The notes beneath the pieces were generated by a model. That model had not been told where the DNA came from, made no database searches, and was given only the letters and a program-made list of their open reading frames with translations. Both the position numbers and the translations under genes were made by a program. From positions 7,511,503 to 7,575,502 of the forward strand of contig NC_045143.1 of the NCBI RefSeq assembly GCF_008831285.2: DNA of 64,000 nucleotides, in the 5' to 3' direction. Within the stretch, counting starts at the first letter, position 1; every line of letters starts with the position of its first letter. This document shows positions 9,362 to 56,545 of this stretch, piece by piece. This stretch comes from Nymphaea colorata. Lineage: Eukaryota; Streptophyta; Magnoliopsida; Nymphaeales; Nymphaeaceae.

Positions 9362-10503
9362 TCAGTGTTCATGAACATGTAACGATGAAACCTCTCTAAG
9401 CACCACTGAGGTGTTAAGGTTGGCAAGCACTTCAACGTTGAAGGGATAGGCTTCACTATGCAGCTCAGATGAATATGCTTTTGTTGCCAGTTGCATGTAA
9501 AGCTGTTCTGTGGGGTGTAAGCCATCGTAATAGGCGTAGATGCTCCTATCTGGGCACGGTTCAGTTCCTTCAGCACAGAATGCCCCTTCAGATGATTCCG
9601 ATACCAAGCAGCAACTTGCATTGAGCTTCTTTAATCCTAGCAGAAATAGGAAATTTTTTGTTTAGACATAATGCAAATGAGTAATATACTTTTTATTGAT
9701 GTGGAACAAAGCATACCATAAGTAGTTGGATGGTTGATCATCTCACTGATTATTCCAGAGGCGTTAATATAAACAAAAGCGAATCCAGGCAAGTTCTCAC
9801 TTAGATTTTTTAGTGCAGGTCCAAGTTTGTTGTTGAACAAAGCCGAAGCCTCGTTTAATACATGCACACACCACCCATTGTTGTGATTTTCATAATATGG
9901 AATACAACCTGTCTGCAGGATATTAAATACCACAAATTTCCGGGCCCCAAAGTCATATGCTCTCTGCAGAACAGGAAATAAAAAGCAAGCTAACAACAAA
10001 GACAAGGAAACGGCAAAAGTGTTATTAAGGCAGTTCTGATTGAAAATCCAATTTTAGTTTTTTCCTTTTGGCTCATAGTGACTAGCAAGATAAACAAATT
10101 TATGCTGATGTTTAATCAAAACCTTTGCTGGCAATAGTGCAGATCGTTAAAAATAAACAATGATTTCATGAACTTGTCTAGCCTGCCTCAAGCTTCATTT
10201 GAGAGAGTGAGAGAGAGAGAGTACCACGAGCTGGTTGGTGTAATTTCGAATGAGCACTTCTGTTAGTCTCTGCAAGTCACACTCTATAGGTACGCCTGAT
10301 AACGTGCAGCTCGCCATGTAATCATTCCCACCAATGCAGAATAAGAATATACTCTGTGAGAGGTAGGAAGACAGCGCAAGGCTCCCATGCAATTGAATTT
10401 TCAGATCCGGCAATGTTGTTTCGCCGAAGTTTACAATTTGGTTGCTCAAAGATGTGACATTTCCCTGCAAAGGATTTTCAAATTTTGCTAATGTACGAAT
10501 CCT

Positions 10504-10541
<38 letters not shown>

Positions 10542-11175
10542 CTCTTCGGCATAAGTTGGCAGTGGAGTCATAGTTTCAATATTAGATTTTGAACTCCGTC
10601 AAAAAAGCTTCACGTGGCCTCCACAGCCATTCGACCAGCAAAATAAAATTTAATTTGAAGATTTTTTAACATGGGCCAACCCCAACGTTTCAAATTCTTA
10701 CAAGTGCTAAACAAAATCTTTTAAAAGCCAAAACTTGAAGGGACGACATAGCCCCCCACTGGCCTTCCTTCCATCCGCCCCTACCGTCAGCCCCCTGAAA
10801 ACTGCTAGAAACAAGACTTACACTTTGATCAGTAGAATCAAGGATGCCGGCACCACCTGAGGCATAGTTTACTCCGGCGAGAATGGAGCTCCCTCTGGTG
10901 TGAGGGTCGTAGAAAACCGGCAGTAAATGAGGCAGTCCTAACAACTGCCCCAGTATGTCTGCCGAGGTTCTTCCATTTGTGCACCTGCCCGTAGAGCCCG
11001 AGGAGAAATCCACCCCATATGGAAAATAGTTGCATTTGACTGTTGTCTCCAAAAAGTCATTGTTCCCAGCATCAACCAGCGAATCCCCAAAAATGAACAT
11101 AGCTTTGACATTGTTTTCAGTAATGGCTCCCGATAATCGGGAGAAAAGGATCAAGAAGGAGAAGAGAATGAACAT
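9362..11175 (-). CDS. GDSL esterase/lipase, copy 2 (intact)
   Basis: The best-preserved of three tandem GDSL hydrolases, presumably secreted and acting on ester bonds. Exons 11175-10822, 10464-10225, 9963-9717 and 9636-9362 have exactly the lengths of copy 1 (354, 240, 247 and 275 nt) and join in frame to 371 residues. All catalytic blocks are present: signal peptide, FGDSLVDAGNN (Ser32), NYASGGAGIL, CIGGNDYM with the oxyanion Asn at 165, and YYDGLHPTEQL with Asp318/His321. Donors are GTAAGT, GTACTC and GTATGC; acceptors end in TTGCAG, CTGCAG and TGCTAG. The start at 11175 is the Met directly before the signal peptide. Intron 1 carries an (AT)n run at about 10,506-10,539. Substrate unknown. 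Confidence 0.9.
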
Positions 11176-11342
11176 GCTAGCTGTAGCTGCTGTTGGACTG
11201 GGGACAGGGAGAGCGGACAAGTAGAGGGCAGTTGGTTGGAGTTTCTCTGCAAGCAGGGTGCACGAGGCAGATCTTGGCATTGTGTTCTTAAGCCCTTTAT
11301 TGAAGCGCAAGCTGTGGAGGGGTACTGCTTCTGCCAAACCAT

Positions 11343-12178
11343 TTTGTCTGTTGATCTCGCAAGAAGGTTAGTTGGAAATTAATGAAGTGGCAGCATTACC
11401 TTTGATTTTGACAAAATAGTCGAGTTGCATGCAATAAATATACATTCGATCAAAAAAGAAAAAAAAAAGTTGTGGTATTTTAAAAATTTTTACAAAAAAT
11501 TATACATTTCAGTAACTTCCTTTTTATCCTTTTAAAAATCTCTTTTATTTATTTTTTCAAATATTTTGATCAGTGTACAATTTTTTGGAGAAACTTCCAC
11601 CTCACTCTCGATCAAAATCAAAAGCGTGTTTGAATGACACCCTGGGAGGCCCTCCCTCAGTTCTAAAAACTAATTAAAAAAAAATCAAGTTTTAATAAAA
11701 CCTAATCTCTTGAAATGAGTCTTTCCAAATCATTTAAAGTTTATGTCAGTATATTTATTTTAATTTAGAAAACTCACTTTCTTTTGATTTATTTTAATTT
11801 AGAAAACTCACTTTCTTTTAATCAAAAAGCCTAGCATAACTAGTTGGACTGGGAGGTCAATAAAGGCATAGTCGTTAGTTTGATTGGTGCAGCGTGCCGT
11901 GTTACATCTTAATATTTTTATTTGACTTTCATGGAAAAAAAAGGTGTATGCGCATTTCTAGGCTTGCTTTAATTTCGTCTATAGTTTTAAATGAGAAAAT
12001 TTTGTATACCTTGTTCAGCAGTCCTTGTAAGTAGTTAAAATGGTCAGAACAAGAAACTTCCTAAAAGAATCAATTACATTTCTCATCATCTCTTCCACCA
12101 ATTATTTCCGTTATAAACTCTTGCTGTCAGGCGCAGAGATCATCAATATCGATATCATCAATAAGATAACATTTATTA
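11343..12178. other. 5' flank of GDSL copy 2
   Basis: No gene is seen. The sequence resembles the 5' flanks of copy 1 (about 4310-4700 and 5400-6060) and copy 3 (about 19,770-20,240). No convincing TATA box could be fixed for the GDSL genes. Confidence 0.5.
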
Positions 12179-12469
12179 TCATTCAGACAACTTGTTCCGA
12201 AATTTACTGGTTTGAGGGTCAAAGAAAACAGGCATTAAATGAGGCAGGCCCAGTAACAGTCCCAGTAGGTCAGCTGACCTTCTTCCATTGGTGCACCAAC
12301 CATTGGGAAATCTACCCCCATATAGAAAGTAGTTGCATTTGTATGTTGTCTCCAAAAGATCGTTGTTCCCAGCATCAACGAGGGAATCCCAGAAAATGAA
12401 CATAGCTTTGACGTTGCTTTCGGTAATGGCTGTCGACAATCTCGAGAAAAGGATGAAGAGAATGAACAT
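12179..12469 (-). pseudogene. GDSL exon-1 relic A
   Basis: A lone exon-1-like piece, read on the minus strand from the Met at 12469. It has the signal peptide and AMFIFWDSLVDAGNN, so the block I Gly before Asp is Trp. It then follows the family through TNGRRSADLLG and FFDPQT before leaving the family sequence and stopping at 12179. Relative to the intact copies it lacks a few residues after CNYFLYG and the last third of exon 1. No exons 2-4 follow. Relic B at about 20,480 shares the same deletion, so both come from one older broken copy that was carried along in the segmental duplication. Confidence 0.85.
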
Positions 12470-12823
12470 TGCTAGCTGTAGCTGATGGAAAGGGGACAAG
12501 GAGAGCGGTGAAGTAGAGGGCAGTTGGTTGGAGTTTCTCTGCAACGAGGGTGCATGAGGCAGTTCTTGGCTTTCTGATCTTCAGTTCTTTTAAAGAAGCA
12601 GATCTGTTTTTTTGATAAATGATTTGGATTTTTTTTTTCTTTCTTTCTTTTTATTAACCAACAAAACGCAAAAATGACCACTTTTTTGTTCTTTTTTTTT
12701 TCATTGGTATCCCTCCATTCAAACAAACAGGGAGTTATTATATATAAAGTTATAAACTCTTATGATGTTATATATTTTTTTTTGTGGGGACACTCACTTT
12801 TAATTATTTTGGGGCACTTAGAT

Positions 12824-12937
12824 ATATAACAATTAAATATTTTCAAACATTAACATATATATTAAACTAATTTTGTAAGGATATAACAATTAAATATTTT
12901 CAAACATTAACATATATATTAAACTAATTTTGTAAGG
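12824..12937. repeat. Perfect 57-bp tandem repeat, two units
   Basis: Units 12824-12880 and 12881-12937 are identical (each starts ATATAACAATTAAATATTTT). The unit is absent from the matching place in the right duplicate (about 21,060-21,180), so it arose after the segmental duplication. Confidence 0.9.
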
Positions 12938-13572
12938 TTGAAAGGCTGTAGTTTGAGCCAAAGGTCCACAACCTTCAAACTACCACAAGCCCTCAACAGC
13001 CAGGGGCGAAGGGGCGTCCGTCAACGCTCGCCAACCAGTGAAGGTCTGGACGTGGTCGCCGCTACCGGCGAGATAGTTTGACAGGCGACAGCTCATTCTG
13101 AAAATTCATGTTTGCTCTGTCATCAGTGCTGGAGCAGTGACCTCAAAGAAAAAGTATCAAATTTCTCCGTCGGTTTTGATTCATTTTGTGCTCGAAGAGT
13201 CTTCAGATTTTTAGAACGAGTTTTAGTTAAAAATGGTTGAGAAGTCGATTGGACTTTCATCAAAATCACTGCCATCTGTGATGGAAGTGTTCTTCCTTTC
13301 TTTGTTCTTTTTTTTTTTCTTTTGTGGTAATTCATGATTCTTGATGCAAAGTGCGGGTTTCGAGCTCGATTGGATTGGGGCTAGTTTAGGGGCATGTTCA
13401 GAATGAATTTGAATCCAGAATCAAAAGAAAAACAACAGTCGACCAGCTTTTGGGGGCAACGCTGAACACTGTTACTGCCGGTTGATTTTTCTGAAAATCC
13501 TTACAATACTTGAAATCTTCAGCACTAAATCGGTCGATTCTTGGTCGGTTTTGCTTCCCTCAGATATCTGAA

Positions 13573-13706
13573 GGGCGCATTTGATAGCCGTGGATCTCAG
13601 ATCTAACCCCGGATCTACCTGAGAGATCCACAGTGTTAACAAGCGCTGATTTTAGCATCCGTGGATTTCAAATCTAAGAAGAGCTTATTTTCAAACGCCC
13701 CAGAGC
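13573..13706. mobile_element. Candidate MITE with short inverted ends
   Basis: The left end GGGCGCATTTGA and the right end TTTTCAAACGCCC are imperfect inverted ends. The inside has repeated GGATCT/AGATCT and a CCGTGGAT that recurs as ATCCGTGGAT near the right end. The second copy at about 21,820-21,953 lies in the duplicated spacer, so it is not independent. A loosely similar element may lie at about 44,637-44,862. No clear target-site duplication was found. Confidence 0.35.
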
Positions 13707-14162
13707 GTTCCACTTTCACTTCAATTGGACAGCATCGTTAAGCAGTAGGATTTGTTGTTCGAATTCTAACAAAGGCCGGACAATTTGTATTCGGAGGACA
13801 GTTTATAGGAAGTCTGTGATCAACCCTGCATTAACCTTTTGAAAATTCTACAGAACATGCTCAGGCGTTGATGGAATAATAAAAGCAACCCATAAGTTGG
13901 AATCGAACAGGGCAGTTAAATGAAAGAAGACCAAACGTAAGTGCACGCTGTGGTTATACCCGAACTTGAACATGTTTTTGTGAAAAGTACTAAAATTTTT
14001 TTAAGTCCAGTTTTTTATTTTTTTCATCCTACACAGCTGACTTGGCCATTTATTTCGCCAATCATGGAGGTCTTAATCAACTCCAGTAATGTATCTTAAT
14101 TTGAACACCTTTGAGAAGCCTTGTATATTGATGCCATGGAGCCTTTCACATGAGTGTCTGGC

Positions 14163-14201
<39 letters not shown>

Positions 14202-14299
14202 GGAGAGAGGAAAAAAAGAAGAGATGGAGGACAAGAACCAATCCACTTGGGCTTCACAATGGCATCCTTGAACTCAAGATCTATCACTTAGTTTGTGTG

Positions 14300-14306
<7 letters not shown>

Positions 14307-14367
<61 letters not shown>
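14307..14367. repeat. (AT)n microsatellite
   Basis: An uninterrupted AT run of about 61 bp; the matching run in the right duplicate is at 22,611-22,658. Open frames of Tyr-Ile repeats across it are artefacts. Confidence 0.95.
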
Positions 14368-14370
<3 letters not shown>

Positions 14371-15619
14371 AGAGAGATTGAGAGAAAGAGAGTCTATATT
14401 TATTACCAATGGCATTACTTGTTGTTGACTTTAAAGAAGGATTTAGGCTTTAAAGAGAATAACATAGCTGGTCAAGCTGCTGGCATATTGGAACCTTATC
14501 GATATCAAGATGTTATCTGTCCAAAAGATTGGGGCAGTTACTGTCCCATGAATATGAATATGTCTTTAAAGATTAAGGTAGATTCATACAATATTGTGTT
14601 ACCATGGTTTATGAATCTATTACAATCTTTGAGACAACACCAATTTGTTACTATTGTCAAACATAGTCTAAATTTACCCAATCTCGTTGGTGTTATTCCC
14701 CTTATTGCTTGTGGGAGTAGAACCCATCCTAAGCTGAAAGTACACGACTCCACCCAAACACCAAAGCACCTTGGACAAGATGGTCATGGAACTTGGGAGG
14801 CTTTGGCTTTCTTTTGCAAGCCATGGATTGTAATTTTTTCACTCACTAAGACAAAAAAGTTTAGCAGTCTATCATGCTATGGACAAAATTATCATCTTTG
14901 CAAATGCAAATTTCAGCTAGGGTCTTAACTTAAATTATTCAACTCTTGACGCAAGACCACAAATTATTACGTTTAATTCTGACAGTTGTGATCAGCTACG
15001 TCGAAGTGAGACGGTCACTGAACCAAGCGTACAAAACCCGCGCACTCGTTATTGACCTCACTACAAAGACATAATGGTTCCAATTTTATCAGATGTCTCC
15101 GAAGAGACGATATATAAGTGGCATCTTTAAGAACTTGACAATGTAACATTTTTGAAAATTTGAAACTTTTAAAATCTCAAATTCAATTCCGAAAAATGTT
15201 GCCTTGCATGAACTTTTTCGTTTTGATAATGCAGGTCAGATCGAGATGGTTTCGAAAGAATTTTGATTTTGCAAATATAACTATGCAAATTTTGTGCAAC
15301 AAACAACTTAAGATGACAAATTTATCACAATGATAGATAAAAACAATCGAGTAAGATGGATGAACCATCACCTGTCTTGACATCAATGCTATGAGTCGTA
15401 TGAGATCTCTTATATATGACACAAAGGTCATCCGTCCTTGCACTACATTTCCAGGTCACGGTGCAAATTATCACTAATTGCAACAGAAGGTATTGTAAAG
15501 GAGAAGATTCAGATAATCAGAACAGCCGAAAAACTTCGATCAGGTTATCCACATTGCCGTTGATGCTATGTAACACTCCAACAGCCTGTAAGAACGTTTG
15601 ATCGAATGACAAGGAATGT

Positions 15620-18099
15620 CTAGGAAGCTTTATCCATCAGTTGAATTGATGCCAAAATGTTTGATTTACTAGTTTCAACAATGCAGCCATTCATAACCAT
15701 CTCTTCAAGCATGAAATGAGCCTTCTCCAAGTGAAACATAATAGCAAGTTTACACTATAGTACAGCAAAAAGAAATTAGTGGAACTTCAGAGTACTTGCA
15801 GTATGGGCCAGAGAGATCTCTGCTTAGACATGACACATTAGAAGAAAGTTAGAACCTTACAACATTTCAAAAGTGCTGGTCCATAGTTTCCACAAGTAGG
15901 TGAATAAATTCAAGAATTGCTAGTTCATTCTGCAAAAGTGAAAATGGATAACCAACTTATAAGTCTGAGTTCTTTAATAGATGCAAAGGAGCTACTAGAT
16001 ATAGATGATATTAAATGGAAATAAGCTAATAATCAAAATAGCAAAGCAAGCCATTAGTCACCCACTATTTATGAATTAACTTTACTATATACTGGTCCAA
16101 ACTTTACAAGACACCATTCAGTTCTAGTTCAGGTAAATGTGCTTGGCAACATCAAGCATCTAAGGTTCAGTCTTTACTGGATGCTACAGCCTAAGCTCGT
16201 TCCAGGAGTGAACTGAGCTCATGCTTCACACAGCGGGTGGCTCAAGCACCCTTACCCTGAAGGACCTGAGCTTGAGCACCATGAAGCCTTTCGTAGCTAA
16301 TTCCTGCAAAACAATTCAGCTAATTTATTTTATGAACTGACAACTCTTTGGCTAACTTAATATTCATAGGCAATTGAAAACAGTATAGTTTATTGGCTTT
16401 CAGTACAAGCATCAATGCCAGATGTTGATCCTGGAGATAGACGGCCACCACCTAAAGGGACTGTTCCCACCAACATTATAGAAGGAGATCAGTTATATGA
16501 GGTGCACAAGAACATAGCTTGACCCATCTAGTCCCATGGCTTCCTAGACTATGGATTCAACACATGTATCAATACAGAGATCTATGGTTATTGACGTTCC
16601 AAGTTGGATGGCTTTCTCTAGATTAACCACCAAACATGCTTGAAACTTATTAACAATTGGGGACATATTTTCTCAAGTAACTGGTTTTGCATAAAGAGTT
16701 TCTCCATCATGAGTCAACTATGTTGGACATCTTGCCTAATCATGAGTTGTGACCAATATAAAACGGTCCATATTATTAGGTGCTGAATGTTTTGCTATAA
16801 GGATAAAGATTTAGTAAGACTTTAGTCCGCAAGTATCTTCTCTAGCAAGGTTGCAAAGCAGTTACCCCATTCAGAAGGAGAAAACTCTAAAAATGCTTGG
16901 TGGGCATGCATGTTGAGGAATGTAGAAGTTTAATGCACATTATTAAATGCTGGATTCGTTCATAACTATAGGTTTAGACTCGTTGAAAAATTGGGAGTGT
17001 AGAGAAACAAAAAGATTTTAAGGACAAACATCTCCCTTCTCAAACAATTTTGTCTGTGTCAATTCTGTGTATGAATATTTTCTGCGAGTACCTGAAATCA
17101 CAATCATTCAATCATCAGCAATATTGCTTCAAGTTGATGCATGAAGAGGCCAAAATCAACTGTGTTGTTGAACTAACAAGTATTCATCGGTTAGGTGAAG
17201 TTCATCCTTGGTGTGGTTGATGTCTAGATTACAGAAGACATGAACAGTTGCAGTTGTATGAAGAAACATTCATTTCCCATCATGGAAGAATCGGAATGCA
17301 CTGCCAAGCACTTACAGAGTCCTGGAAATGTGGCGGCCTTAAATGAAACATAGGAAAAGGAGAAAAGAAAAAGGACATTTAGGTTTGTTAATATACACGT
17401 TAGTCATTTTTTACTACAGTCCAGGAGATGTAAGATCAGATTGGCTTCTATGACCTTTAGTTACATGCCAAAAATTGCTAATAAAATTGACTGCTATTCT
17501 AGGGGAGAAATTTTGGATAGATAAACCCCCCAGATTGGAACATCTGGTCCAGAATGACAATTAATTTCATGTGCAAATGAAATGGTAGGTCTTTGCCGAA
17601 CTCCAGCTTCAAACAGACTAAAGTATTCTGTTGTTAATTTAACCTTATCCCTGAAAAGAGTCATAGATATTGTAATGTTGAGCAGGGACAGAAAAAGCAC
17701 ATAGATGAAAAACAATAAAACAAATTGGATGGTAGATCATCCACAAGTAAAAGATGGCATGTATAGTAACCTACAGTCTGGACATTTCAAAATATATGCT
17801 GTAGTAGCAGGTATGGCATGAAAGGAGAAAGAATCAGCTAGCAGGAATCTGACAACTTACCCAATAAAACATATGCAAAGTAAAAAGTTTCTTCATGAAT
17901 AACAATAAACATATTGTATTGAGACACACTCTTCAAAGACTTGGAGCATGTGAATTGAAGACCAGGAAGACCATGCAAAGAGAAAGAATGGAGACATTAT
18001 TCACCTTGCCTGCTTCGTGTTTGGGATTGTACGTACAATATAAACAAATGGATAAGATATTATTTACTATATTTAGCATAAAATTTAAGCACATAACAT
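15620..18099 (-). pseudogene. AP-4 sigma partial copy (exons 3-4 only)
   Basis: A truncated duplicate of the AP-4 sigma gene at 24,075-28,074. It keeps exon 4 (15,754-15,620), exon 3 (15,929-15,861), the intron between them and most of intron 2, then stops at about 18,096-18,099, where it joins the 3' end of GDSL copy 3. Exons 1 and 2 are absent. Exon 3 contains an in-frame TGA (GGG in the intact gene), and exon 4 starts CKLAIMF where the intact copy reads CELDIMF. It cannot make a working sigma subunit. The junction shares the four bases ACAT with both parents, which suggests a microhomology-driven unequal exchange. Confidence 0.9.
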
Positions 18100-18103
18100 C
18101 TTC

Positions 18104-19625
18104 TTATACATTGCTAGTTGAAGGCGCCTCCGGTTCTGAACCTCGGTGTTCATGAACATGTAATGATGAAACCTCTCTAAGCATCACTGAGGTGTTAAGG
18201 TTGGCAAGCACTTCAACGTTGAAGGGATAGGCTTCACTATGCAGCTCAGATGAATATGCTTTTGTTGCCAGGTGCATGTAAAGCTTTTCTGTGGGGTGGA
18301 AGCCATCGTAATAGGCGTAGATGCTCCTATCTGGGCATGGCTCAGTTCCTTCAGCACAGAATGCCCTTTCAGATGATTCCGATAAGAAGCAGCAACTTGC
18401 ATTGAGCTCCTTCAATCCTAGCAGAAATAGGAAAATTTTTTGTTTAGACAATGTAAATGAGTAATATATTCTTTATAGTGATGTGGAACACAGCATACCA
18501 TAAGTAGTTGGATGGTTGATCATCTCACTGATGATTCCAGAGGCGTTAATATAGACAAAAGCGAACCCAGGCAAGTCCTCACTTAGATTTTTTAGTGCAG
18601 GCCCAAGTTTGTTGTTGAACAAAGCCGATGCCTCGTTTAATACGTGCACACATGACCCATTGTTGTGATTTTCATAGTATGGATTACAACCTGTCTGCAG
18701 GATATTAAATACCACAAATTTTCGGGCCCCAAAGTCATATGCTCTCTGCAGAACAGGAAAGAGAAAGCAAGCTAACAAACAAGAAAACCGGCAAAAGAAA
18801 TGACCAGTGGTTATTAAGGCAATTCTGATAGAAAATCCAATTTTAGTTTTTCCCTTTTGGCTCATAGTGACTAGCAAGATAAACAAATTCATGCTGATGT
18901 TTAGTCAAAACCTTTGCATTTTGTTAATACACGAATCCTGACAGGCGATAGCTAGGATAGTACTTCCTCGTATACACTTAAGTTGGCAGTGGACTCATAG
19001 TTTCAGTATTAGATATTGCACTTCATAAAAAAAGCGAGGATTTCATCTTCACGTGGCCTCCAACAGCCATTCGACCAGTAACATAAAAATTTAATTTCAA
19101 TTTTTTTTAACATGGGCTAACCCTAACGTTTCAAATTTTTACAAGTGCTCGACAAAATCTTTTAAAAGCCAAAACTTGAAGGGGGGACATAGCCCCCTAC
19201 TGGCCCTCCTTCCATCCGCCCCTACTGTCAGCCCCCTGAAAAGTGCTAGAAAGAAGACCAGATTTTCTTACACTTTGCTGAGTAGAATCAAGGATGCCGG
19301 CACCAAGTGAGGCATAGTTTACTCCGGCGAGAATGGAGCTCCCTTTGGTGTGAGGGTCGTAGAAAACCGGCAGTAAATGAGGCAAGCCTAACAACTGCCC
19401 CAGTATGTCCGCCGAGGTTCTTCCATTTCTGCACCTACCCGTAGAGCCCGAGGAGAAATCCACCCCATATGGAAAATAGTTGCATTTGTATGGTGTCTCC
19501 AAAAAATCACTGTTCCCAGCATCAACCAGCGAATCCCCAAAAATGAACATAGCTTTGACATTGTTTTCAGCAATGGCAGCCGAGAATCGGGTGAAAAGGA
19601 TGAAGAAGGAGAAGAGTATGAACAT
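18104..19625 (-). CDS. GDSL esterase/lipase, copy 3 (lacks the block III exon)
   Basis: The third tandem GDSL paralog. Exon 1 (19625-19272), exon 3 (18745-18499) and exon 4 (18417-18104) are present with good splice signals, but exon 2 is gone: the introns are fused at about 18,917 with roughly 340 bp lost relative to copy 2. Because exon 2 is 240 nt and both its borders are in phase 0, exon 1 can splice to exon 3 without a frame change, giving 304 residues. Block I FGDSLVDAGNS and block V YYDGFHPTEKL remain, but block III with the oxyanion Asn is missing. The usual TGA stop reads CGA here, adding 13 residues that end in APSTSNV. It is probably not an active hydrolase; it could be transcribed or be a recent pseudogene. 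Confidence 0.75.
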
Positions 19626-20251
19626 GCTAGCTATAGCTGTTGAAAATTGGGACAGAGAAAGCGGTGAAGTAAAAGGTGCATGAGGCAGATCTTGGCTTTC
19701 TGATCTTAAGCCTTTTAGAGAAGCGCAAGCTGAGGAGGCAAACCGTCTCGTCTGTTGAACATGCAAGAAGGTTGGTTGGAAGGTTTTGAGGCACTATGAA
19801 GTGGCGGCATTACCTTTTATTTTGACGAAATGATCGAGTTAAAAAAAAGTAGAGGTCTTTTCAAACAAAAAATCATAAAAAAAATATACATTTTAATAAC
19901 TTCCTTTTTAACCTATTAAAAATCTCTTTTTTTATTTTTTCAAATTTTTTGGAGAAACGTTCGCTGTTTGAATGACACCCTTTCTCCTAATCAAGAAGCC
20001 TAACATTGCATTCCTTAGTTCGATTGGCACAGCACTGCTGTGTTACATGATACATCTTAATATTTCTGTCGACGTTCAGGGGAAAAAGGGGAATGCGCAT
20101 TTCTAGGCTTGCTTTAATTCTGTCAATAGTTTGAAAAAGGAAAATTTTATATACTTTTAGCTATACTTTAAGAAGACCCTTGTTCAACAATCTTTGTAAG
20201 TAGTGTAGTTTAAGTACCAAGAATTGAAGTTAAAATAATTAGAACTAGGGG

Positions 20252-34018: not shown

Positions 34019-37000
34019 TCATTTCGTTGCTTGAGCAGATGACGTGCCGTTTGCGGTCACGGGCTTGCTGCTCTTCGGCCCAACTGGCGGCTTCGGTGCA
34101 CAAGATTCTGGTTTAGCATGGGCCTTGTGGTCGCCATTCTCGCACACGCCGCAGGATTCTTCTTTGCTCTCCGCCTTAATGTCGCAGTTCTTACAGAAGA
34201 AGCTCGGTTGGTTTGTGGAGGAGAGCAGCCTCGCCCACATTCGGTCGGTTATACAAACTTGATTTCGTGTCTCGATCACACGCTGCAATAGGAACCGAGT
34301 CCAGATGTTAGCTTCTCGGAACATCAGGCATTTGTGGTGAAAGTACTTACACGATGCTCATCATAGTGAGCTCTTTAGATTGAAATTGCTCCAAAACCAG
34401 GACATCATGAAGATTAATCATGTGGTTGGTTGCTTCTGATCTTATCAATGAGCATAAGTCAGAAGTATTATCATCTTCCATGATTCTATCCTAACTGGGC
34501 TAAATAGTTGTTGTGCTATATAACAGAATATATCAACATCTCTTCCATCAATTAGTCAATAATACCATTGAGTTAGTGAGAATGACATAACTCAAAAAGT
34601 AGTTGTTACAAGATGGGACAACTAATAAACAGATCGTATCATGTGTGGGCCTTGGGCATCCCATAATTATGGAGATAGAACATAATTGACAAAAGTTGTC
34701 ATCGATAATCGAACTATATTGAATGCTGGAAGTAACAGACTAAAAGCAATACCATTGATGCAAGTGAGCTATTATCAAATTTAGTATTTGTTAACTATCA
34801 TAACTCTATCACTTACTGGAATAGGTATATATGCGTGTCTGCCATTTACAGGCCCGACGGTGAAGCCTGTGTATCCGGCCATGGCACCATGAAGAGCACT
34901 GTGAGCAAGGAGGGTGCAGTAGACGTTGTCTGACGCATTGCTGGGGATGGCACGAATCATGTACGTGGGGTCTGAGTAGAAAGCAAAGAAATGCAGTTAA
35001 TGAGGACAGTTTTACATATCTCAACCTTAGTTTGCGGGAAGAGCAGAAATTTCACACACCTATGTACTTGAGGTTCAGTACAATCTTCTTCCTGCTAAAA
35101 TGTTCCTGCACAAAATTTGTAATAAATTCAGATGTCTATTAACCGTCATAACAAAGCACATAATATTTCTCGAGTCATAAAAAAGCACATATTTGAAAAG
35201 GAAGATTTAATATGGTTTTCCACCATGGAAGGCCACCATCGACTTTGAGTCGATAGTGCTATAACATTTCATATATATAGACTTTAATTATAATGAATGA
35301 TAAGGATTTCTCCTAAAATCAAGGAGAAGTTAGACGAGGATTTAATTTTATTTCTAAATTATATGAATCACTCCCTCCGTTGAATGGAATTTTGTGTGCC
35401 ATTTTGAATGACACAAATGCACCTTTACCGCCGTGGCGCAGAAACCAACCGTCTGTTTAATTAAACCATGACCTTTTGGATTTTATCCAGAAAGAAAGAA
35501 AGAGAATTTAGGAGTGCAATTCTGCAGAATCGGATGATGTCAAAACTGGAACATACCTTGATCTTCTGAGACAACCACAAGCCAACATCAAGAAGTTGAG
35601 CATTTCCAGATGCATCTTTTTGCTCCGTGGACAGCGTGCTTTCACGCAAAAGCTTCTGCCCTGCCCCTTCGGCCACGACAATAACCATGTGGCCCTGCTC
35701 TTTGAGACGGTGCTCCATGTAATCAAACAGGCCACCCTTACCCTCCAAGTAGAAGGGGCACTCAGGGATTAGGCAACAGTCCTGGAGAACAAAAGGGAGC
35801 GAGCTTGTAAAAACTGAACCAACTATCAAAAAGACACACTCAAAGCCAATGTTTCCTAATTGAAGAACTAAAAGCAAATGCCACAAACTGGAGCGTCGAA
35901 AGAACGTATTGGGAACCCTCAGACATACCACATCTCTGCTGGCCAGTGTGGCGTACATGGAAATAAAACCTGCAGCATCAAGATTATGATAAATTCAGAA
36001 CAGACACCAGCAATATAGTCGGAATACTTGGTGAAAACTCTTTGATCTGCCTGGAAATTGGAGATAAGATTCATGTGGGTATACTACTCTAGAGTGATTT
36101 CTATATATGCCAATGGACCTATCGTCATTTTTAAGGACTTAAATGCTGACGATATGAAATCAATAACATTAAGTATACCGCTTTGGCGACCCATCAGCTT
36201 CACAAATCCGACACCGTTTTCACCACTTTCAGCTTCTACATGTGCTGCGTTAATGGCTCTTTGGGCCTCTTCCACCGCAGTGTCAAACCCAAAAGATTTG
36301 TCGATAATCTGAAAAGAAAGAGAGAGAAGATGAGGTGTTAGAAGCAGCATCCCCCTGTATCATGTAAATCATGCAGAACGGAAAGATTGACATTGATGAC
36401 TCATAACTCAAAGGAGAAAATTACCGCAATGTCATTATCGATAGTTTTTGGAATACCAACAACAGAAATCTTCAGTCCACGACTCTTGATCTCCTGCGGA
36501 ATAAGATATCGAAGCATTTGAATATGTATGTCAATCAAAAAATATTAAGATTCTCATACAATATGCATCACTCGATTACCTCATAAATATCAAGAGCACC
36601 TTTTTGGGTACCATCCCCTCCAATTATATACACCTGAAATAAAATGATGATCAGGAAGAACGGAAAAAAAAGAGCTCTGAAGCAATAAAGCAATGGCAAT
36701 TGTTAGGACCTGAAATTTAATTAAAGATTAAAAGAACCGGTTCAGTTGTTTCACTAACCTGGTTAATTCCTCTGTCCTGAATGCTATCAACTATCCTCTT
36801 GGTAATCTGCCCACCTCGCGACGTGCCGAGTATGGTGCCACCGCGCTTATGAATGTCGTTAACCACTTTGGGCGTCAACGTTATGGTGTTGCGGCTGTAG
36901 AAGCCCTTGTAGCCTCCCTATAGATTGAAGCAACACATACTGTGAGGATATGAACGGCCATGAAGACAACCCACAGACCAACTTCAAGTAGAAAGATTAA

Positions 37001-38861
37001 CAGGACTTCAGGACCAGAAATTTGCATCAAATTTACCTCGATTCCGAACACTCTAGTGACGCCATACATGTGGTAGAGGCCGCACACCAATTCCCTGACG
37101 ACCGTGTTAAGGCCTGGGCAGAGGCCACCACATGTCACAATACAGGCACTGACCTCATCTGGGTGGAAGTAGACCTGAAACAAACAAAACAGCCGTGTAA
37201 GAACCTATCTGCAAATTCATCTGCAAACGAAAGAACTGCAGTCAGGCACGGTTCCTCGATTATTTTCTTCTTTCAGCAGAGTGAGGCGTCTGGAATTGTT
37301 TGTGATCGAGAAGTCCCCTGTCTACTGCATTTGCTGGATTAGAGTGTACCAGCCCACTACAAGGAAGAAACAAAGAAGGGGACCATACCTTCTCCCGGGG
37401 CCCTGCTCGTCGAAAATGAGTTCCCCTTGGGCTACTTTCATGAATTACAATCTACACTCAATAACACATCAATCTCTCAGTATTTTGACGATTTTGATCA
37501 TACCAATATGTAAAACACATCCATAAACGCCAAAATTGGGACCATCTTTGGAGTACCTTTTGGGTGACGGTATCATCAGAGTTAACAAAATACTGCCTGC
37601 AAGAACAATAGAGCAGAGGTACTTGTGAATTTATACAAGCATAAATGATTTAGAAAGTTTGGGACTTCAAGGGGATCAAGTTGCAGAACAGAATTGTGGG
37701 CCAATGAAAATTTTAGAAACTCTTGAGAGGATTCTTACTTTACAGCCGCATATGCCGGATTGAACTGCAAAGGGTTCGTATAAGTCTGCAGAGAGCATCC
37801 ATAGCAACGAATCCATCAGTTATGACTACATACATCAATCGAGAAAGAAGGTGGGAAAATTAAAACACTGAGTGGTACAGATTCTTTCCCTCGTGAAAAG
37901 AAGAAAGAGGAACAAACAAGAAGGAGCTCAACAGGAAGACTGTCAACCTTATCTTCGTATTGTAACATGGGGAAATTTAGAAATTGAAGATGTTTAAAGG
38001 TAAAAGAACAATCGACGGCAAAAGGGACTCCTTGAACACAGGTTTAGGGAACTTTCAGAAGTCATTAAGAAATATAATGGAAAAGGACAAGAACTTACAG
38101 AAGCAGCTAGACAAATTTCAAAGTAAAACGGGGGAATATTAGAAACCAGAAAGGTAAAAAACGGACAAAGAAGGTCACAGAGACGCCAAAAAAATGAACA
38201 GTGAGATCCAGAGATGGAAGTAGAGTTCGTTCAGGAGAAAGGACAGCGCAGCCACTCGAAAGAGTGGGGAGATAGAAAGAGAGACGGGGAGCATTAAAGC
38301 AAAGATATAGGTAAGGAAAACGGAAAGAAGAGAACTCCCTGAGCCAAGCAGAAACAGGACAAATGGAACCTCAACAAAACACAGACTTGAAGCAGGGAAT
38401 CAGGGAAGGACACGAAATTTTAACAACTTGAGATAAATCAACGCGAAACGCGAACTTTTTTAACACAAAAGGACAGTTCGAAAAGAAATAGTACGGATCA
38501 TAATGAAACGGACAAAGAACAACAAGGAGCCGAAGCCAGAGCACGGAACAACTGAAAGGACCAGAGGTCCAGAAGCCAGAGCACGGAACAACTGAAAGGA
38601 CCAGAAGCCAGAGCATTGAGTGGAAGATAATCTAAGACATGAAACAACTGGAAAACACAGAAGAAAGAAGTACAGGCGGAGGCGACACGAGCCGGTCAGG
38701 GAATCACGGGGATATGAAGATCAAAGAAGAAAGACGGGGAACAAGAAGTAGAAAGAACTCACAGGGAGATCAACTTCGCGGATGTAATCGGACAAGTGAG
38801 GGACGTCCTCGAGGACGTAGCCGTTCTCTCCGGTGACGACCTTCGGCTTGTAACGATCCAT
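34019..38861 (-). CDS. ATP-dependent 6-phosphofructokinase, canonical copy
   Basis: Phosphorylates fructose 6-phosphate to fructose 1,6-bisphosphate with ATP, in the cytosol (no transit peptide is visible). There are fourteen exons: 38861-38763, 37785-37739, 37596-37557, 37451-37389, 37174-37037, 36917-36759, 36633-36580, 36493-36425, 36308-36179, 35969-35929, 35781-35557, 35105-35060, 34971-34817 and 34282-34019. They join in frame to 509 residues, close to plant PFK3/6/7-type enzymes. Motifs: GGLCPGLN (99-106), TSRGG (161-165), GGDGT (187-191), PKTIDND (215-221), MGR (262-264) and YMIRA with Arg377. The conserved end SSTNQPSF is followed by an extra tail of about 59 residues with Cys452, 455, 466, 469 and 483. 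All introns are GT-AG. A second, altered copy follows upstream at 49,277-56,409. Confidence 0.95.
38532..38620. repeat. 40-bp tandem repeat in PFK 1 intron 1
   Basis: GAAGCCAGAGCACGGAACAA and what follows occurs at 38532-38571 and again from 38572, and the first 13 bases return a third time at 38604. The units are nearly identical, so the repeat is young. Confidence 0.75.
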
Positions 38862-49276: not shown

Positions 49277-52200
49277 TCACACACGGAAGCTTGGCTGATT
49301 TGTGGAGGAAAGTAGTCTTGCCCACATCCGGTCTGCCAGGCAAACTTGACGTTGCTTCTCAGTCAGAGTCTGGAATCAAGTTAACCGCTAGATGTTAGGC
49401 TGTTAGCCTCAATGAGCTGATAGTCGACACCAATGTCAAATTCAAAACGAAAATTACAAGCAGAATCTAAAAGAAAAAAATAAACTAAGAACCACATACA
49501 TGTTGGAAAAAAAGAAAAAACAATAAGAGCAAGTTCTATTACTTAAATGAGAAAAAAATTAAATGTTTATTTTGACACTGAATTTGTGGTAATTAAACAC
49601 ATAACCTGAGCGCTCAAGAACTTGTTAAATCATTTCAACCTGATCCAAGATGTAATATGACGAGGGTGATGACAAGTGAAATGGTCATTTATAACAGACA
49701 AAAAGGTGGTTGAGAAAATCTCTGCCAAATCAATATCATCAGTATGGTATACCTATAAGACCCAATGAATCTACGAGAAAATATCATCTTGAACTAATTC
49801 TGAGCAGTTGGTTGGGTCTTGATCGAGCCAATCACATGGCAGAATTTTTTGTGAAATGCTTCAAATTAAACTCAACGTGATGTTCTTGATATCCTTCTTG
49901 CCAAAAAGTTAGTGATGCTGAAACCTTGCACTTTACTGTTACGAAACATCCACAGTTTCAAAGGATGGCGAAATCTTGCCTCCATTTAGAGCTCAAGAAT
50001 TCAGGAAGGTCACATTCCAATTTCATGGATGTATACGTTCTTAAATGCAGAACAATGTCACACTACTTTCCATAATTTCTGGTAACTAAAGAGAGAGGTA
50101 GGCCCCCTTTGCATGTGATAGGACAGGAGGGTCCCTTTCTCATTATGGCGAATGTAGTAGGTAGTAGACAGTGTGGGGTCCCACTAGTGCATGGCGGATC
50201 TAGCAGATGATAGAGGGAGTGGAGCCCTTCTGTATCATCATGTTCAAGATGCTTTTAACAGTAATCAACAGTTAATTTGGTTGGGGGTTGGTAGGTAAGC
50301 CATGTTTTTTGAGAGAGAAGGGAAAAAAATGTAAAAATTAAAGATACGATAGCATTAGCTTCAAGGGGTATAGTATAGCTGGTCCAACAAGGAGAGGGGT
50401 ATAGTATAGCTGGTCCAGCAAAGAGTGTAGAAAGAATGTGTCGTCAGTTTGATTCCTATAGTTGCTATACTTTTGTGCCATATAGGGTGAGAACACCATA
50501 CCAAAGTTGATGGTACACTGGGATACCAGCCTGCAGCATTGGACCTTGGGGGCTGGTTTGAAGGGTACAAGTCTTTGATAGCGGGTAGAACAGAGATATG
50601 ACTATAGGTCCAAATGGCAAGCTAAACCAAGCAGACATATCTAGTTTGTCTACTATAGAAAGGAAATATAGAAAGGAAATCACATTTTTGCACCTTTTAT
50701 AGTTTTCTTGGCAAGTATCAAGAGGGAATATCCTGGCACATATACTGCTTATATAATTCACAAATACGTAAATTGACATGTGAATATATGAAAATGGAAT
50801 GCAATACCATTTATTGGTATAAAACTTGCAGGGCTACGCCCAATGAATGAGAAACAGGTGGGCATTATTTTTGCCATTTGGATCTTCCATTAAAGTTAGA
50901 AACTTGAACATTCTCTTGACCAAAAAAAATAAGAAAAACAATTTTTCTGGGCGGTTGATCATTCGTTACTTAAGAATCTAAACGTTTGTAATTAATAAAG
51001 ATAATGATCGATTAAATTAAAATTATGATATTGACTTACATGGATGGGTATATGCGCATGCTTTCCATTAACAGGCCCAACTGCAAAGCCTGTGTATCCG
51101 GCCATGGCTCCATGGATGGCACTGTGAGCTAAGAGCGTACAGTACACATTGTCTGCGGCATTGCTCGGAATGGCACCAATCATATAAGTTGGATCTGCAA
51201 AGAGTGGTATACTGCATATTTATTCATCTTTCAAATAGTTCAAACTTGAGATGTAGTGTGACTTTCTTAGATCACGAACCTATGTATTTGAGGTTTAGCA
51301 CAATCTTTTTCTTTGCAAAATGTTCCTGCAAGTGGCAAAAATCATGAACGAGCATGCCCATGTTATGACCCTTAAGCCAGCTTAACTGCCCTTCTCTGAA
51401 AGATCAGTGATTCTTTTGAAAAAGCTTGCACACTATTTTTTATATTCCGGTGTCTTTTATATACTTCCTCCATCCCCTCCCTCAACCGAGAAAAAAGGTA
51501 ACTACAATCATGAATTTTTAGCTTCAATTTCTGCAGATCTTAATCATCTTTTTGCGCACCTTGATCTTGTCATTCAACCAGCTACCAACATCAGAGAAGC
51601 TTGCAGGCACAAGTCCCTGCCCAGCACCTTCAGCAACCACCATGACCATGTGGCCGTCCTGCCTCAGTCTCTGCTCCATAAACTCAAACAGACCGCCCTT
51701 CCCTTCCAGGTAGAAGGGAGACTCGGGAATTAAGCAGCAGTCCTATCAGTGATTGAAAAGTGTCAAACAGCACTACTAGATAGCTGAAACTAAAGTACAT
51801 ACACAACTGGAGACTAGAGCGTTACTCTGCTGGCATATATTTTCCAGAATTTTGCGGTTCTACCACGAGGTTTTACAAGGAATAAATATAATGCCAAGAG
51901 AAACACTACTATATCTGAAAATTGGTCTCTTCTTAAAAGCATTTCATTTATATTCACATTCAACTCATAAGAATAGATTTTGGTTTCGTTTTAATCATAG
52001 TAGCTTATATATCTTTTGTACTTCATATTCCAAAATTTCCTGAAAACTGTTATGCTTTATGAACTATGTACGTGGAGAAGCCTAGCAGGGTCCCTGATTT
52101 AGGAAAAGTGGAAGCACATATAAGGGATAGAATTTTAAAGCATGTTACCACGTCTCTGCTGGCCAGAGTAGCATACATGGCAATGAATCCTGCAAAATCA

Positions 52201-55200
52201 ATGCATAACATTGAACAGTCAGTTTCTGCACATAGGCATCGTCAGGAGGCAGACAGACTATAAATATATGCTGTTTTCTGGCAGAACCTCCATTAAGATC
52301 GACTTCAAAGGGAAGCCAATGTCTCCCTCATTCAATGTATACAAATTGTTAGGCATCAAAAGGGAAAGAATTTGCATAATGAATTAATTAAGGCAATGAG
52401 CAGTAGAATGGTACCACTGTTGCGGCCCATCAGCTTCACAAGGCCCACACCGTTCTCCCCACTTTCGGCCTCAACATGTGCTGCTCTAATGGCCTTCTGA
52501 GCCTCTTGGATTGCAGAGTCGAAACCAAACGACTTATCAATTACCTGAAAAAATATAACAAAAGATTGCGTCCTAGGCCACGGGGTTATATCCTTACAGG
52601 GATACAATTATCATATATATCTTGACTCTGGACTTCTTTTTCTTGTATTAGAAATTATTGAAAAATAAAAGTCTAATAGAAACTAAGAAAAAAATTTTAC
52701 CCCAATGTCATTATCAATGGTGCCCGGAATCCCAACAACTGAAACGTTAAGGCCTCGCTTTTCAATCTCCTGCATGTACATTACAAGTTAAAGCGGAAAA
52801 CTCAGCACTTAGAACTCATACAACAAAAAGGCAAGGCTGGTTAGGGACCCAATCTCCTGACCCATGGTCATTGCCTCATTGGATGACCCCAAAACTATGT
52901 TTAGAGACTTTGCATTAGCATTTAAGCTAGTTTGCATCTTAGCTTTAGCATTGCAACTAACTTGTATTTGAAGCAGTACTCAAGTACTATATCCCCAATT
53001 TCAAGAAAATGCCAATCACAAAAATTGCCTATTTCTTAATATTTGTCATGAATGAAGCGCTCTAAGAATGACATTCAGCCATACGTAGTGATCATAATAA
53101 AATTCCAGCACTCTGTCACTGAACCAGATAACGATGACCACTAGGGAGAGCACATAGATATATAAGCCTCAGAATTATAAGAAATTACCTCATAAATAGA
53201 AGCGGCGTCTCTCATTGCACCAGGTCCTCCAATTACATACAACTGCATGGGAGAACATAATAATATTAAAAAGAAAGGCAGTTTGTAGTTCACTACTACA
53301 AAAAAAAAAAAAAGTGTTGCAGGAAGTAAAAAGGAGAAGGAAATACACAAACTAAAACTGCTCCATCCACCCGACTAGGGGATCATTGGCATGTGATGTT
53401 AAACGCTGAAGAAGGTGAGGAATTCAATACTCAAAGTCTCAAACCACACCTGATCTTAGCATAACGACGCCTAATTGCCGAACACGCCAAACAACAAAGA
53501 AAGAGAAGAAGCCAAAGAAGGCACTCCCAATGGAGGGAGTGTTTCTCACTGACCTGGTTGATTCCCTGCTGCTGAATGCACTCAACTATGGCCTTGTTGT
53601 CGGCTGCCTCATGCCCTGTCCCAAGGATGGATCCGCCACACTTATGAATGTCATTCACTTTCTGGGGAGTCAGAGTGATGGCGGTGCCGGGGCACTGGAA
53701 ACCCTTATACCCTCCCTAAGTAATTAAAAGCAGAACTTCGTTCAAACGCTGATCATAAATCAAATCGTCATCAAACAGTAACGTTCTTTCTGCATCACTA
53801 ACGGTGGATCTCCACTCGTTCAATCTTACAAACAATTTGAGAGTACATTTAAAAAATCGAACCGAATTGCATCGATACGTTAAAAATTGACAAAATGTCA
53901 AATCCCTAGAGAAGGACGTCCATCGGCACCAGTAACTAGAATGTGTAGATAGCATATAAGGCGATTGACGCAGAAATTGAATCATGGGGAGTGACGTTCA
54001 CCTGGATGCCGATGACTTTGGCGACCGCATACATGTGGTGAAGGCCGCACACCAATTCCCTGATGACAGTGTTGATGCCAGGGCAAAGGCTACCGCATGT
54101 GACGATGCACGCACCCACCTTCCCGCCCTCGAAATACACCTGCACATGCATTTGCCTCATCCACGTAAATATTTTTGAACAGTGTTATCCGTCACTATAT
54201 CCATCCACGTAAATAATGTTTCAAGAATGTTACCGGTCACTATATCCGAGAATGGTTTGACAGGGAGTTGGTAGGCGACCAGTTGAACTTTCAAAATATT
54301 AACTTTTTATGTCCTAAAAAAAATACCGAAAGCAATCTACTACAAAACGAGAGGAAGCTTCGGCTATATCATCTGTCGTTATATCATTGTATGCCATACA
54401 ACAACAATAAATTAATGATTATTATGACCAACTCTGTGCAAGACAAAGCAAGCATAGCTGTGGCCCAATTTAACAGACTAGAAAAGAGTCTATGTGATTA
54501 ATATCCAGATTTTGATTGAAGGAAGGAGAAGGCGCACATGTCAGTAAATATACTATTATTGACGCCATTCTCATGCACAAAAAAAAAAAAAGAGAGAAAG
54601 ACGGCACGAAAAAGTAGTGCCCGTGATTAATTAGCTCGTCAAAGTACATGCACCAGGTGTTTCAATGAGCGCTGATTGATCGAACCAATTGAGAGACATG
54701 GCAAATTTACGTGGGAAAATTTTATTTAATCTGAAATGGTAAAGAGATCCAGTACCGATGCTAGTTGGGTTCGATTATCGTATGCATGTTCTTGTCTCAA
54801 ATTGGATTCAAGTTCAACATCTTACTTGGATCTATAAAAGCCTGGCCTCATTACATGTAGATGTCAAATATTATGCTGGTTAGATCGATTTGATTTCAGA
54901 AGCATGATTTAAATCTAAAAATTTGAGTTCAATTAAGTCCAATTCCATCAAGTCTAGATTCGATATGAATCCAGTCATTATATGTAATTGCCTAATCTTA
55001 TGCTACTTAGATCCAAATTTTACTCTAAAAAATATGATCTAAATCTAACTTTGAATTTAGTTGAGTCCAATTCCTTGGAGGCTGCATATGCCCCCGAATT
55101 CAAACATTTTACATCCCGTTGATCAATGGACCCAATTAAAAAATTTAAAAAAGTTATATCCACCCTCATGAAAATTATTTTTAAAGCATCATCCAAAGTA

Positions 55201-56409
55201 ACTCATTGCCTCAGAACCTTATGTTCTTCGAACCCATGTTTTCAAAGGATATGCTCAATAAAACACTAAGTTATTTCAAAAAATATATAACGCGATTATA
55301 TTTAGCACTAGACTACTAAATTTAGAAATAACATTAGTGATGGCGTTATGTTTCTGAAACAAGAAATTAATATCATTACGCATTCACTTTTAAAACGTTG
55401 TTCTCAATAATATCAGCATGATTTTTGTCAAACGCCTTCAAAGAAAACCTTCATTAATGACTCCAACGTGTACAAAGCACACCGCAGGCGTTATATGAGC
55501 CTTACGAACGTCGTTTTATCATTCATCTTTTCAACGTTATCCTCAGAATCCAGTTCCAGTCGAGCAAACACAGCCCTTCTCATGGGAATCAATCAAACAT
55601 GGTGAAAGAAAACTTGAGAATATTGAAGACCAACAAAGAGTAGAATGGCTGTGTGTTGCACATATACCTTTTCCCGAGGCCCAGCACGTCTAAAATGCTT
55701 GCCCCTTGGCTTGCTCTCTTCAACAACAATCTACAACACCCAACCACGCCATTCTTTGTCAAAAAATATTAATTCGTCATCTTGATCACCACTCACGTGT
55801 ATCAATTTTTTTTTATCGTCTCCTGCATACCGTTTGAATGACGGAATCTTCGGGATGAACGAAATAATTCCTGCAAAATTAAACGAAAGCGTGGAATCGA
55901 TCATGCGACGTAAATGAAACAAAGATGTTTTGCATGAGCTCTAGGAAATTATAAGAAATTTTAGCAATTTTCTGGAAACAGTTTCAAGCTGCGCAGTCTA
56001 GCTTCTTACCTGACAACCGCATAAGCTGAATTGAACTCCAAAGGATTGGTGAAAGCCTAGCGAATTGAAGGCCAACGCAGAAGAAGAACAAAAGAAAACA
56101 CGTCGGTTAAGAGTCGTTCCACAGTATGCCCATTAAGGTAAAGCGGAGAAAAAGAGTATGATTCACTCAGAATCATCAGGTGAGGGAGCAGAAAATTCCG
56201 GTTTGGCAGAAAGAAGAGGAAGAGAAATGGGAGGAAGAGCTCACGGGGAGATGGGGAATGTAATGGGAGAGGTGAGGGACGTCCTCGAGGAGGTACCCAT
56301 CTTCCCCTGTGATTATCATCGCCTCCCGTTTCATGCATCTGCCCATTCCGACGCCCCTTGCCTCGTCGTCTATCGTACTTCCTCTCTCTGCTGACATCGC
56401 TTTTACCAT
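49277..56409 (-). CDS. Phosphofructokinase-like protein with altered active site
   Basis: A tandem paralog of the PFK at 34,019. The same 14-exon plan closes in frame: 56409-56245, 56056-56010, 55870-55831, 55730-55668, 54139-54002, 53715-53554, 53242-53189, 52769-52701, 52544-52415, 52189-52149, 51742-51560, 51325-51280, 51194-51040 and 49369-49277. The length is 461 residues from the first Met, or 457 from 56397; a Met at 56334 aligns best with the paralog's start. Key sites differ: GGLCPG is GSLCPG, TSRGG is TGHEA (184-188), GGDGT is GGPGA (210-214), PKTIDND is PGTIDND (238-244) and YMIRA is YMIGA (Gly386). Fourteen residues after AEGAGQ are missing, and the protein ends at [10 protein letters not shown]. 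Open frames suggest selection or youth; catalysis is doubtful. It could be a regulatory subunit or a decaying copy. Confidence 0.9.
50364..50425. repeat. 31-bp tandem repeat in PFK 2 intron 13
   Basis: Two units, 50364-50394 and 50395-50425, each starting AGGGGTATAGTATAGCTGGT and differing at about three bases. Confidence 0.85.
54873..55077. repeat. Degenerate tandem repeat in PFK 2 intron 4
   Basis: Two blocks of about 130 bp spacing share TTATGCTRSTTAGATC near their start and AGTCCAATTCC near their end, with clear divergence between. Intron 4 (54,140-55,667) is one of the two longest of this gene. Confidence 0.55.

Positions 56410-56494: not shown

Positions 56495-56545
<51 letters not shown>
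56495..56545. repeat. (CT)n microsatellite in the PFK 2 leader or promoter
   Basis: A CT run of about 51 bp on the plus strand, read as GA on the coding strand, 86-136 bp upstream of the first ATG. GA tracts at this place are common in plant promoters and 5' leaders. Confidence 0.9.

Follow-up and report, generated by a model that had tools for sequence, protein, structure and literature searches.

A tandem phosphofructokinase copy in the water lily Nymphaea colorata with an altered phosphate-donor site, a candidate non-catalytic subunit

When a phosphofructokinase (PFK) gene loses residues that its family holds nearly constant and still stays open from start to stop, has it taken up another job or is it on the way to decay? 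The question is raised by a stretch of 64,000 nucleotides from the water lily Nymphaea colorata (contig NC_045143.1, positions 7,511,503 to 7,575,502), referred to here as the window, which carries a canonical PFK gene and a tandem copy with changed motifs; positions given without a contig refer to the window. The original prediction, made from the letters of the window, held ordinary catalysis by the copy to be unlikely and offered two options, retention in a non-catalytic role or recent decay. The analysis presented here favours the first, reading the copy as a selectively retained non-catalytic PFK that most likely joins active PFKs in mixed oligomers, as one of the subunits, a reading for and against which the chances are evenly balanced and in which partner and mechanism are what we infer.

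The copy occupies the minus strand, where 14 exons lead from an ATG at 56334, taken as the start in that it aligns with the ATG of the neighbour, to a stop at 49277. As originally proposed, the exons join in frame through usable splice sites: all 13 introns are GT-AG, the joined exons encode 436 amino acids with no internal stop, and the 14 exons and 13 introns are free of stops, frameshifts and splice lesions that would disable the gene. The frame remains open further 5' through extra in-frame ATGs, the outermost of which (56409) would give 461 amino acids, unlike in the neighbour, where a stop directly precedes the aligned ATG. The length of 457 codons first assigned to the copy corresponds to neither start, although an open frame of near that size does exist.

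49277..56334, minus strand: the copy, PFK_A, 436 amino acids; GT-AG exon model, open frame; Pfam PF00365 at 186 bits
56334-56245, 56056-56010, 55870-55831, 55730-55668, 54139-54002, minus strand: copy exons 1-5
53715-53554, 53242-53189, 52769-52701, 52544-52415, 52189-52149, minus strand: copy exons 6-10
51742-51560, 51325-51280, 51194-51040, 49369-49277, minus strand: copy exons 11-14
56335..56409, minus strand: possible 25-residue N-terminal extension of the copy, from the upstream in-frame ATG at 56409
34019..38861, minus strand: canonical neighbour PFK_A gene, 14 exons, 509 amino acids, usual motifs

Judged by its Pfam domain, its closest similarity and its 14-exon structure, all of which fit, the copy is a plant ATP-dependent PFK (ATP-PFK), PFK_A by descent. 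PF00365 is the sole Pfam match on its protein (E 1.2e-54), and 312 of 435 aligned residues are identical to the neighbour. Over 402 shared columns, identity is 72.6% to the neighbour, 73.9% and 66.9% to two further PFK_A genes of this genome (C1 and C12, respectively) and 55.5% to the PFK_B gene; the neighbour is closer to C1 (85.6%) than to the copy. Exons 2-14 of the structure that copy and neighbour share are also present at C1 and C12. The copy thus resembles plant PFK_A enzymes of the AtPFK1/3/4/6/7 type in exon structure, domain and identity (67-74% to the three paralogues), and differs from them in its altered donor site and sugar-phosphate Arg, in the absence of the DASGN loop and in a protein that stops soon after the conserved core, without the long C-terminal tail of PFK_A. 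The G+C content at third codon positions is 0.554 in the copy and 0.559 in the neighbour. A hidden alternative exon 7 encoding GGDGT was sought by a translated search of the window with the neighbour protein and rejected, as a single exon 7 matched within the copy. Assembly error is an unlikely source of the changes, since the frame stays open despite many of them and an in-frame deletion.

What, then, has changed in the protein? An alignment was made of the copy, the neighbour, C1, C12, the two-exon PFK_B-type gene at C3 (exon 1 omitted), T. brucei PFK (85-448) and bacterial PFKs; the PFK_C gene on C10 was omitted. Of 80 bacterial loci found, 75 were used, five (L076-L080, 33-35% identity) being left out of the alignment, and a further eleven were removed, seven because the matched span contained stops and four for length, so that the reference for invariance consists of 65 relatives, namely 64 bacterial PFKs and the T. 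brucei enzyme. At the 46 columns invariant among these, the copy departs nine times, compared with once for the neighbour, twice each for C1 and C12, and once for C3. The contrast shrinks with looser thresholds (at 95% conservation, 13 of 81 columns for the copy vs 5 for the neighbour; at 90%, 24 of 112 vs 13). One of the nine departures, a Ser to Thr at neighbour residue 373, is common to the aligned plant PFKs. Of the other eight, three are residues of the deleted DASGN loop and five are substitutions, which in neighbour numbering are Gly100Ser, Arg163His, Asp189Pro, Lys216Gly and Arg377Gly, equivalent to E. coli Gly11, Arg72, Asp103, Gly124 and Arg252; for Lys216, invariance follows in part from the bacterial search itself, whose patterns contained PKTIDN. 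Among the 43 invariant columns still present in the copy, 37 are unchanged, apart from these five and the Ser to Thr. The copy also differs at columns conserved at 91-98% (Pro88Gly, Ser162Gly, Gly164Glu, Thr191Ala, Thr233Ser), and it has Asp at Gly194, the equivalent of E. coli Gly108 and the second adenine-cleft glycine.

54077..54094, minus strand: GSLCPG where the neighbour has GGLCPG; Ser at the position of E. coli Gly11
53605..53619, minus strand: TGHEA where the neighbour has TSRGG; His at the position of E. coli Arg72
53207..53230, minus strand: GGPGAMRD where the neighbour has GGDGTQKG; Pro at Asp103, Ala for the Thr at Ser105, and Asp at Gly108 of the adenine cleft
52707..52727, minus strand: PGTIDND where the neighbour has PKTIDND; both catalytic Asp residues, equivalent to Asp127 and Asp129, retained
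51598..51599 (approximate, alignment-dependent), minus strand: 14-codon in-frame deletion in exon 11, removing the DASGN loop
51172..51186, minus strand: YMIGA where the neighbour has YMIRA; Gly at the position of E. coli Arg252

All five motif differences originally described (GGPGA, TGHEA, GSLCPG, PGTIDND and YMIGA) are present; Gly194Asp, Thr191Ala and the 14-residue deletion that takes the DASGN loop are additions to that list. The roles of Gly11, Arg72, Asp103 and Arg252 are those of E. coli PFK, with the Gly11 position adjoining the transferred phosphate and the Arg252 position on the fructose 6-phosphate (F6P) side. The Arg72 and Arg252 columns, His and Gly in the copy, are Arg in 65 of 65 relatives each. 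Retained are the equivalents of Asp127, Asp129, Thr125, LMGR and Glu222 (AEG), together with the Tyr of YMI at the His249 column; with TIDND, LMGR, AEG and this Tyr kept, the sugar-phosphate half is mostly retained, the Arg252 position excepted.

The donor side fares differently. Donor motifs published in 2024 are GGDGSxxG for ATP, GGDGSxxI for ADP and GG(D/E)D(S/T) for pyrophosphate (PPi), and the adenine cleft is formed by Gly104 and Gly108 (PMC11609450); an Asn at the position equated here with Gly108 excludes adenine from a PPi enzyme, and Asp127 is the catalytic base (PMC12203962). The GGPGAMRD of the copy matches none of the three patterns, so that readings of the copy as an ordinary ATP-PFK (GGDGSxxG absent), an ADP-PFK (GGDGSxxI absent) or a PPi-PFK (GGPGA in place of GG(D/E)D(S/T)) were each rejected. 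With several positions of the donor site disrupted independently of one another, the sequence strongly supports loss of ordinary catalysis: the protein is predicted with high confidence to lack phosphate-donor binding and ordinary phosphotransfer, and ordinary catalysis by it appears very unlikely, in line with the original prediction. Equally sound was the proviso that PGTIDND by itself is no loss, in that P(G/K)TIDxD alone does not set donor type (PMC12203962). That the copy is an ordinary active ATP-PFK tolerating its changes is highly improbable; its PGTIDND does carry the Gly of E. coli ATP-PFK, but four of five invariant donor-side columns are altered, the Arg252 equivalent has changed too and the DASGN loop is gone, and one Gln to Glu exchange reportedly abolished the activity of AtPFK3 (PMC7998735).

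Whether selection has acted on the rest of the protein can be read from its substitutions. In pairwise comparison with the neighbour, non-synonymous divergence (dN) is 0.19 and synonymous divergence (dS) 1.09-1.37 by four methods. A purpose-written codon model was fitted to the neighbour, the copy, C1 and C12 over 405 codons and three topologies. The dN/dS ratio (omega) of the copy's branch, which the original prediction had named as a way of telling its two options apart, was here obtained against paralogues of the same genome and is 0.175 on the best topology (dN 0.143, dS 0.82), compared with 0.076 elsewhere (twice the log-likelihood difference, 2dlnL, 12.0); omega = 1 is rejected at a 2dlnL cost of 50.7. 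The other two topologies agree (2dlnL 11.5 and 10.5, with costs of 31.4 and 54.6 for omega = 1). Within the ATP lobe (residues 130-223), omega for the copy is 0.312 against a background of 0.059, and in the rest of the protein 0.139 against 0.081, lobe and rest differing at p = 2e-4. Where the three canonical paralogues agree, copy-specific changes fall at 26 of 75 lobe sites and at 26 of 221 sites in the rest (Fisher p = 3e-5); corresponding figures are 3/52 vs 11/206 for the neighbour, 1/50 vs 7/202 for C1 and 7/56 vs 24/219 for C12. All five invariant substitutions absent from the neighbour lie within the 12 of 43 present columns classed as ligand contacts (p = 8e-4), a class that we assigned from work on E. 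coli PFK; with Lys216 omitted, four of four lie in 11 of 42 columns (about 0.003, by hand arithmetic). On this statistical evidence, the copy has probably been kept by selection as a folded protein.

A fast-changing ATP lobe is also what might be expected of an altered enzyme, in which a remodelled site would use another donor or substrate, or carry out another fructose-phosphate reaction, through the retained Asp pair. The kept equivalents of Asp127, Asp129, Thr125, LMGR and the AEG Glu speak for such an enzyme, as does the adenine-cleft column, which is Gly in just 47 of the 65 relatives and Ala in 16. Nor is the donor consensus itself absolute in plant PFKs. Normal PFK_A genes of this genome read GGDGTxxG, and the C3 gene retains GGDGT, TSRGG, PKTVDND and YMIRA while sharing with the copy a Met-Arg after the donor motif; the gene on C10 (L092, C10:15522000-15531900), which we take to be of PFK_C type and AtPFK5 class, has GGNGTHAGA, with Asn replacing the donor-site Asp. 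AtPFK5 is catalytically active (PMC7998735), and together with the C10 motif this indicates that the first Asp is not strictly fixed. An altered enzyme is nonetheless unlikely: the equivalents of Gly11, Arg72, Asp103, Ser/Thr105 and Gly108 are all altered jointly, the motif falls outside all three donor patterns (PMC11609450), and lobe omega is 0.31, not above 1.

Could the copy instead be a recent plain pseudogene, active until lately and now drifting, its role lost, before any stop or frameshift has appeared? In its favour, the copy's branch dN is about three times the neighbour's (0.143 vs 0.048), omega in the remainder of the protein, beyond the ATP lobe, slightly exceeds the background (p = 0.037), and the protein ends early and lacks the DASGN loop. 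Drift would be even, though, and substitution density in the ATP lobe is about three times that of the rest; an omega of 0.175 is likewise not near 1, while a short recent neutral phase stays compatible with that value. Neutral evolution was simulated from the copy's coding sequence (seven neutral phases of between 0.02 and 0.82 substitutions per site, with 2000 runs apiece), and the probability of changing at least five invariant residues, a threshold taken from the data themselves, without a stop or a hit on a splice dinucleotide was at most 0.007, peaking at 0.03 substitutions per site; if frameshifts are assumed to arise at 0.08 per substitution, it was at most 6e-4.

Damaged PFK sequence is found elsewhere in this genome. 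Nine PFK fragments (L095-L103, on C7, C182 and C778) match exons 8-14 of C1 at an exon divergence of 3.9-5.1%; exons 2-7 were searched for in them and none was found, exon 1 lying outside the search. In each of the nine, exon 9 is frameshifted or missing, and several have stops or changed splice dinucleotides as scored. Since all share one nearly identical, unrelated left flank (most also include sequence downstream of exon 14), they count as one event and not as nine independent cases, and they point to one rearrangement followed by amplification, perhaps with involvement of a mobile element. PFK sequence of this single origin is thus already damaged at about 4-5% divergence, which also weighs against the copy being a pseudogene. 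A tenth piece, L104, matched a single exon. Separately, L091 (C617:62000-71000) is an intronless PFK-like coding stretch with an in-frame TAA and TAG, a frame change, 50% GC and the altered motifs GGNDTIK and LKAINKD, and is either a foreign contig or a pseudogene. For the copy itself, the omega of 0.175, the rejection of neutrality, the relaxation focused on the ATP lobe, the lack of lesions and the low simulated probabilities lead us to prefer retention, of the two options first offered, over recent decay, and a pseudogene is rather unlikely.

If the copy is retained, what would it do? A job other than the usual reaction is probable, given an apparently destroyed ATP site in an otherwise preserved protein. 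The protein would fold without binding ATP in the usual way, with its PFK scaffold and the greater part of its sugar-phosphate half-site in place, and it may persist for the usefulness of that scaffold, the most economical use of which would be assembly with PFK subunits. In such a scheme the copy would join active PFK_A subunits, such as those of the neighbour, and then shift their activity or regulation. That it is a non-catalytic subunit of this kind, assembling with active PFK_A and altering its activity or regulation, is suggested by analogy and stands a shade below an even chance. The more specific proposal of a dedicated, maintained regulatory subunit of plant cytosolic ATP-PFK, derived by donor-site erasure in a water lily tandem PFK_A copy and paralleling PFP alpha, is tentative.

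The nearest precedent for such a subunit would be plant PFP, a heterotetramer in which alpha is regulatory and beta catalytic (PMC6920184; PMC3653104; the abstract of the former swaps the labels). PFP alpha, like the proposed subunit, is a PFK-family paralogue that is regulatory and not catalytic; PFP, unlike the copy, is PPi-dependent and belongs to a separate branch, whereas the copy is a PFK_A tandem, the two being compared by description and not by alignment. Among plant PFKs, AtPFK2 (PFK_B) had no detected activity in one study, which left true inactivity open (PMC7998735), and is elsewhere called merely lower in activity (PMC12294930); its relative here is the C3 gene, which shares Met-Arg with the copy but keeps the four canonical motifs. 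Rice OsPFK07 is, like the copy, a plant PFK predicted to be non-functional, but there the prediction stems from 120 missing C-terminal residues, expression also being very low, and not from an altered active site (PMC3653104). Outside the family, eudicot TSB-like offers a parallel to the proposed subunit: paralogous to one subunit of a metabolic enzyme but itself non-catalytic, this plant pseudoenzyme still controls its partner allosterically and activates it (PMC12727527), although the enzyme concerned, tryptophan synthase, is unrelated.

An identical pattern of constraint would be expected of a non-catalytic protein kept for a role outside PFK tetramers, for example in sugar-phosphate sensing or gene regulation, and plant hexokinase 1 has been described as an enzyme that is also a glucose sensor (PMC13345567). 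Such a role is likewise unlikely, as Pfam shows the PFK domain alone (targeting signals were not searched for) and the conserved scaffold belongs to an enzyme family known as oligomers. Several points do weigh against the reading of the copy as a retained subunit. The evidence for retention comes from one genome; the lobe boundary and the ligand-contact class were picked after the changes had been seen; the excess of omega outside the lobe hints at mild general relaxation; and, with the YMIRA Arg and the DASGN loop lost, the damage extends beyond ATP contacts. Furthermore, F6P binding by trypanosome PFKs was detected solely with ATP present (PMC7383607), so F6P, too, may fail to bind to a subunit that does not bind ATP. 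Any effect of the copy may then come from contacts, not from bound ligands.

As to origin, the neighbour is most likely the copy's sister. The four-sequence codon model places it there (log likelihood -4071.3 vs -4079.6 and -4082.2; support by resampling of estimated log likelihoods 0.86), whereas IQ-TREE codon and protein trees of five sequences group the copy with C3, the distant gene, at supports of 38-47 throughout, too low to settle its sister. The published whole-genome duplication lies at about 0.9 synonymous substitutions per site and dates to 117-98 million years ago (PMC7015852), and the copy's synonymous divergence is of similar size. To ask if the neighbour and C1 are a pair left by a whole-genome duplication, the window was compared for collinearity with C1 (three stretches of about 10 kb), C12 and C3, which gave one weak match besides both PFK genes (E 5.6e-6, C1), too little to decide the matter.

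Around the copy, a perfect (CT)25 repeat, GA on the coding strand, lies at 56496-56545, about 160-210 bases upstream of the aligned ATG. A promoter scan of the copy's 5' end, using a bacterial and not a plant consensus, was near chance level, and there were no Rfam matches at gathering scores within the window. Further away, at 2303-19793 on the minus strand, several open reading frames carry FIFGDSLVDAGN-type motifs and apparently form a tandem cluster; we take them to be GDSL esterase/lipase genes.

Among the titles and opening lines of abstracts listed from open-licence PubMed Central (PMC) papers, with subscription papers mostly outside, there is no report of a plant ATP-PFK paralogue that combines a destroyed donor site with constraint on the rest of the protein. 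PFK is one of the main points at which glycolysis is controlled, and the partner that suggests itself is the neighbour, which lies in this window as well. If the copy modulates active PFK, a wetland plant would have converted an enzyme into a subunit and thereby gained a further layer of control over glycolysis.

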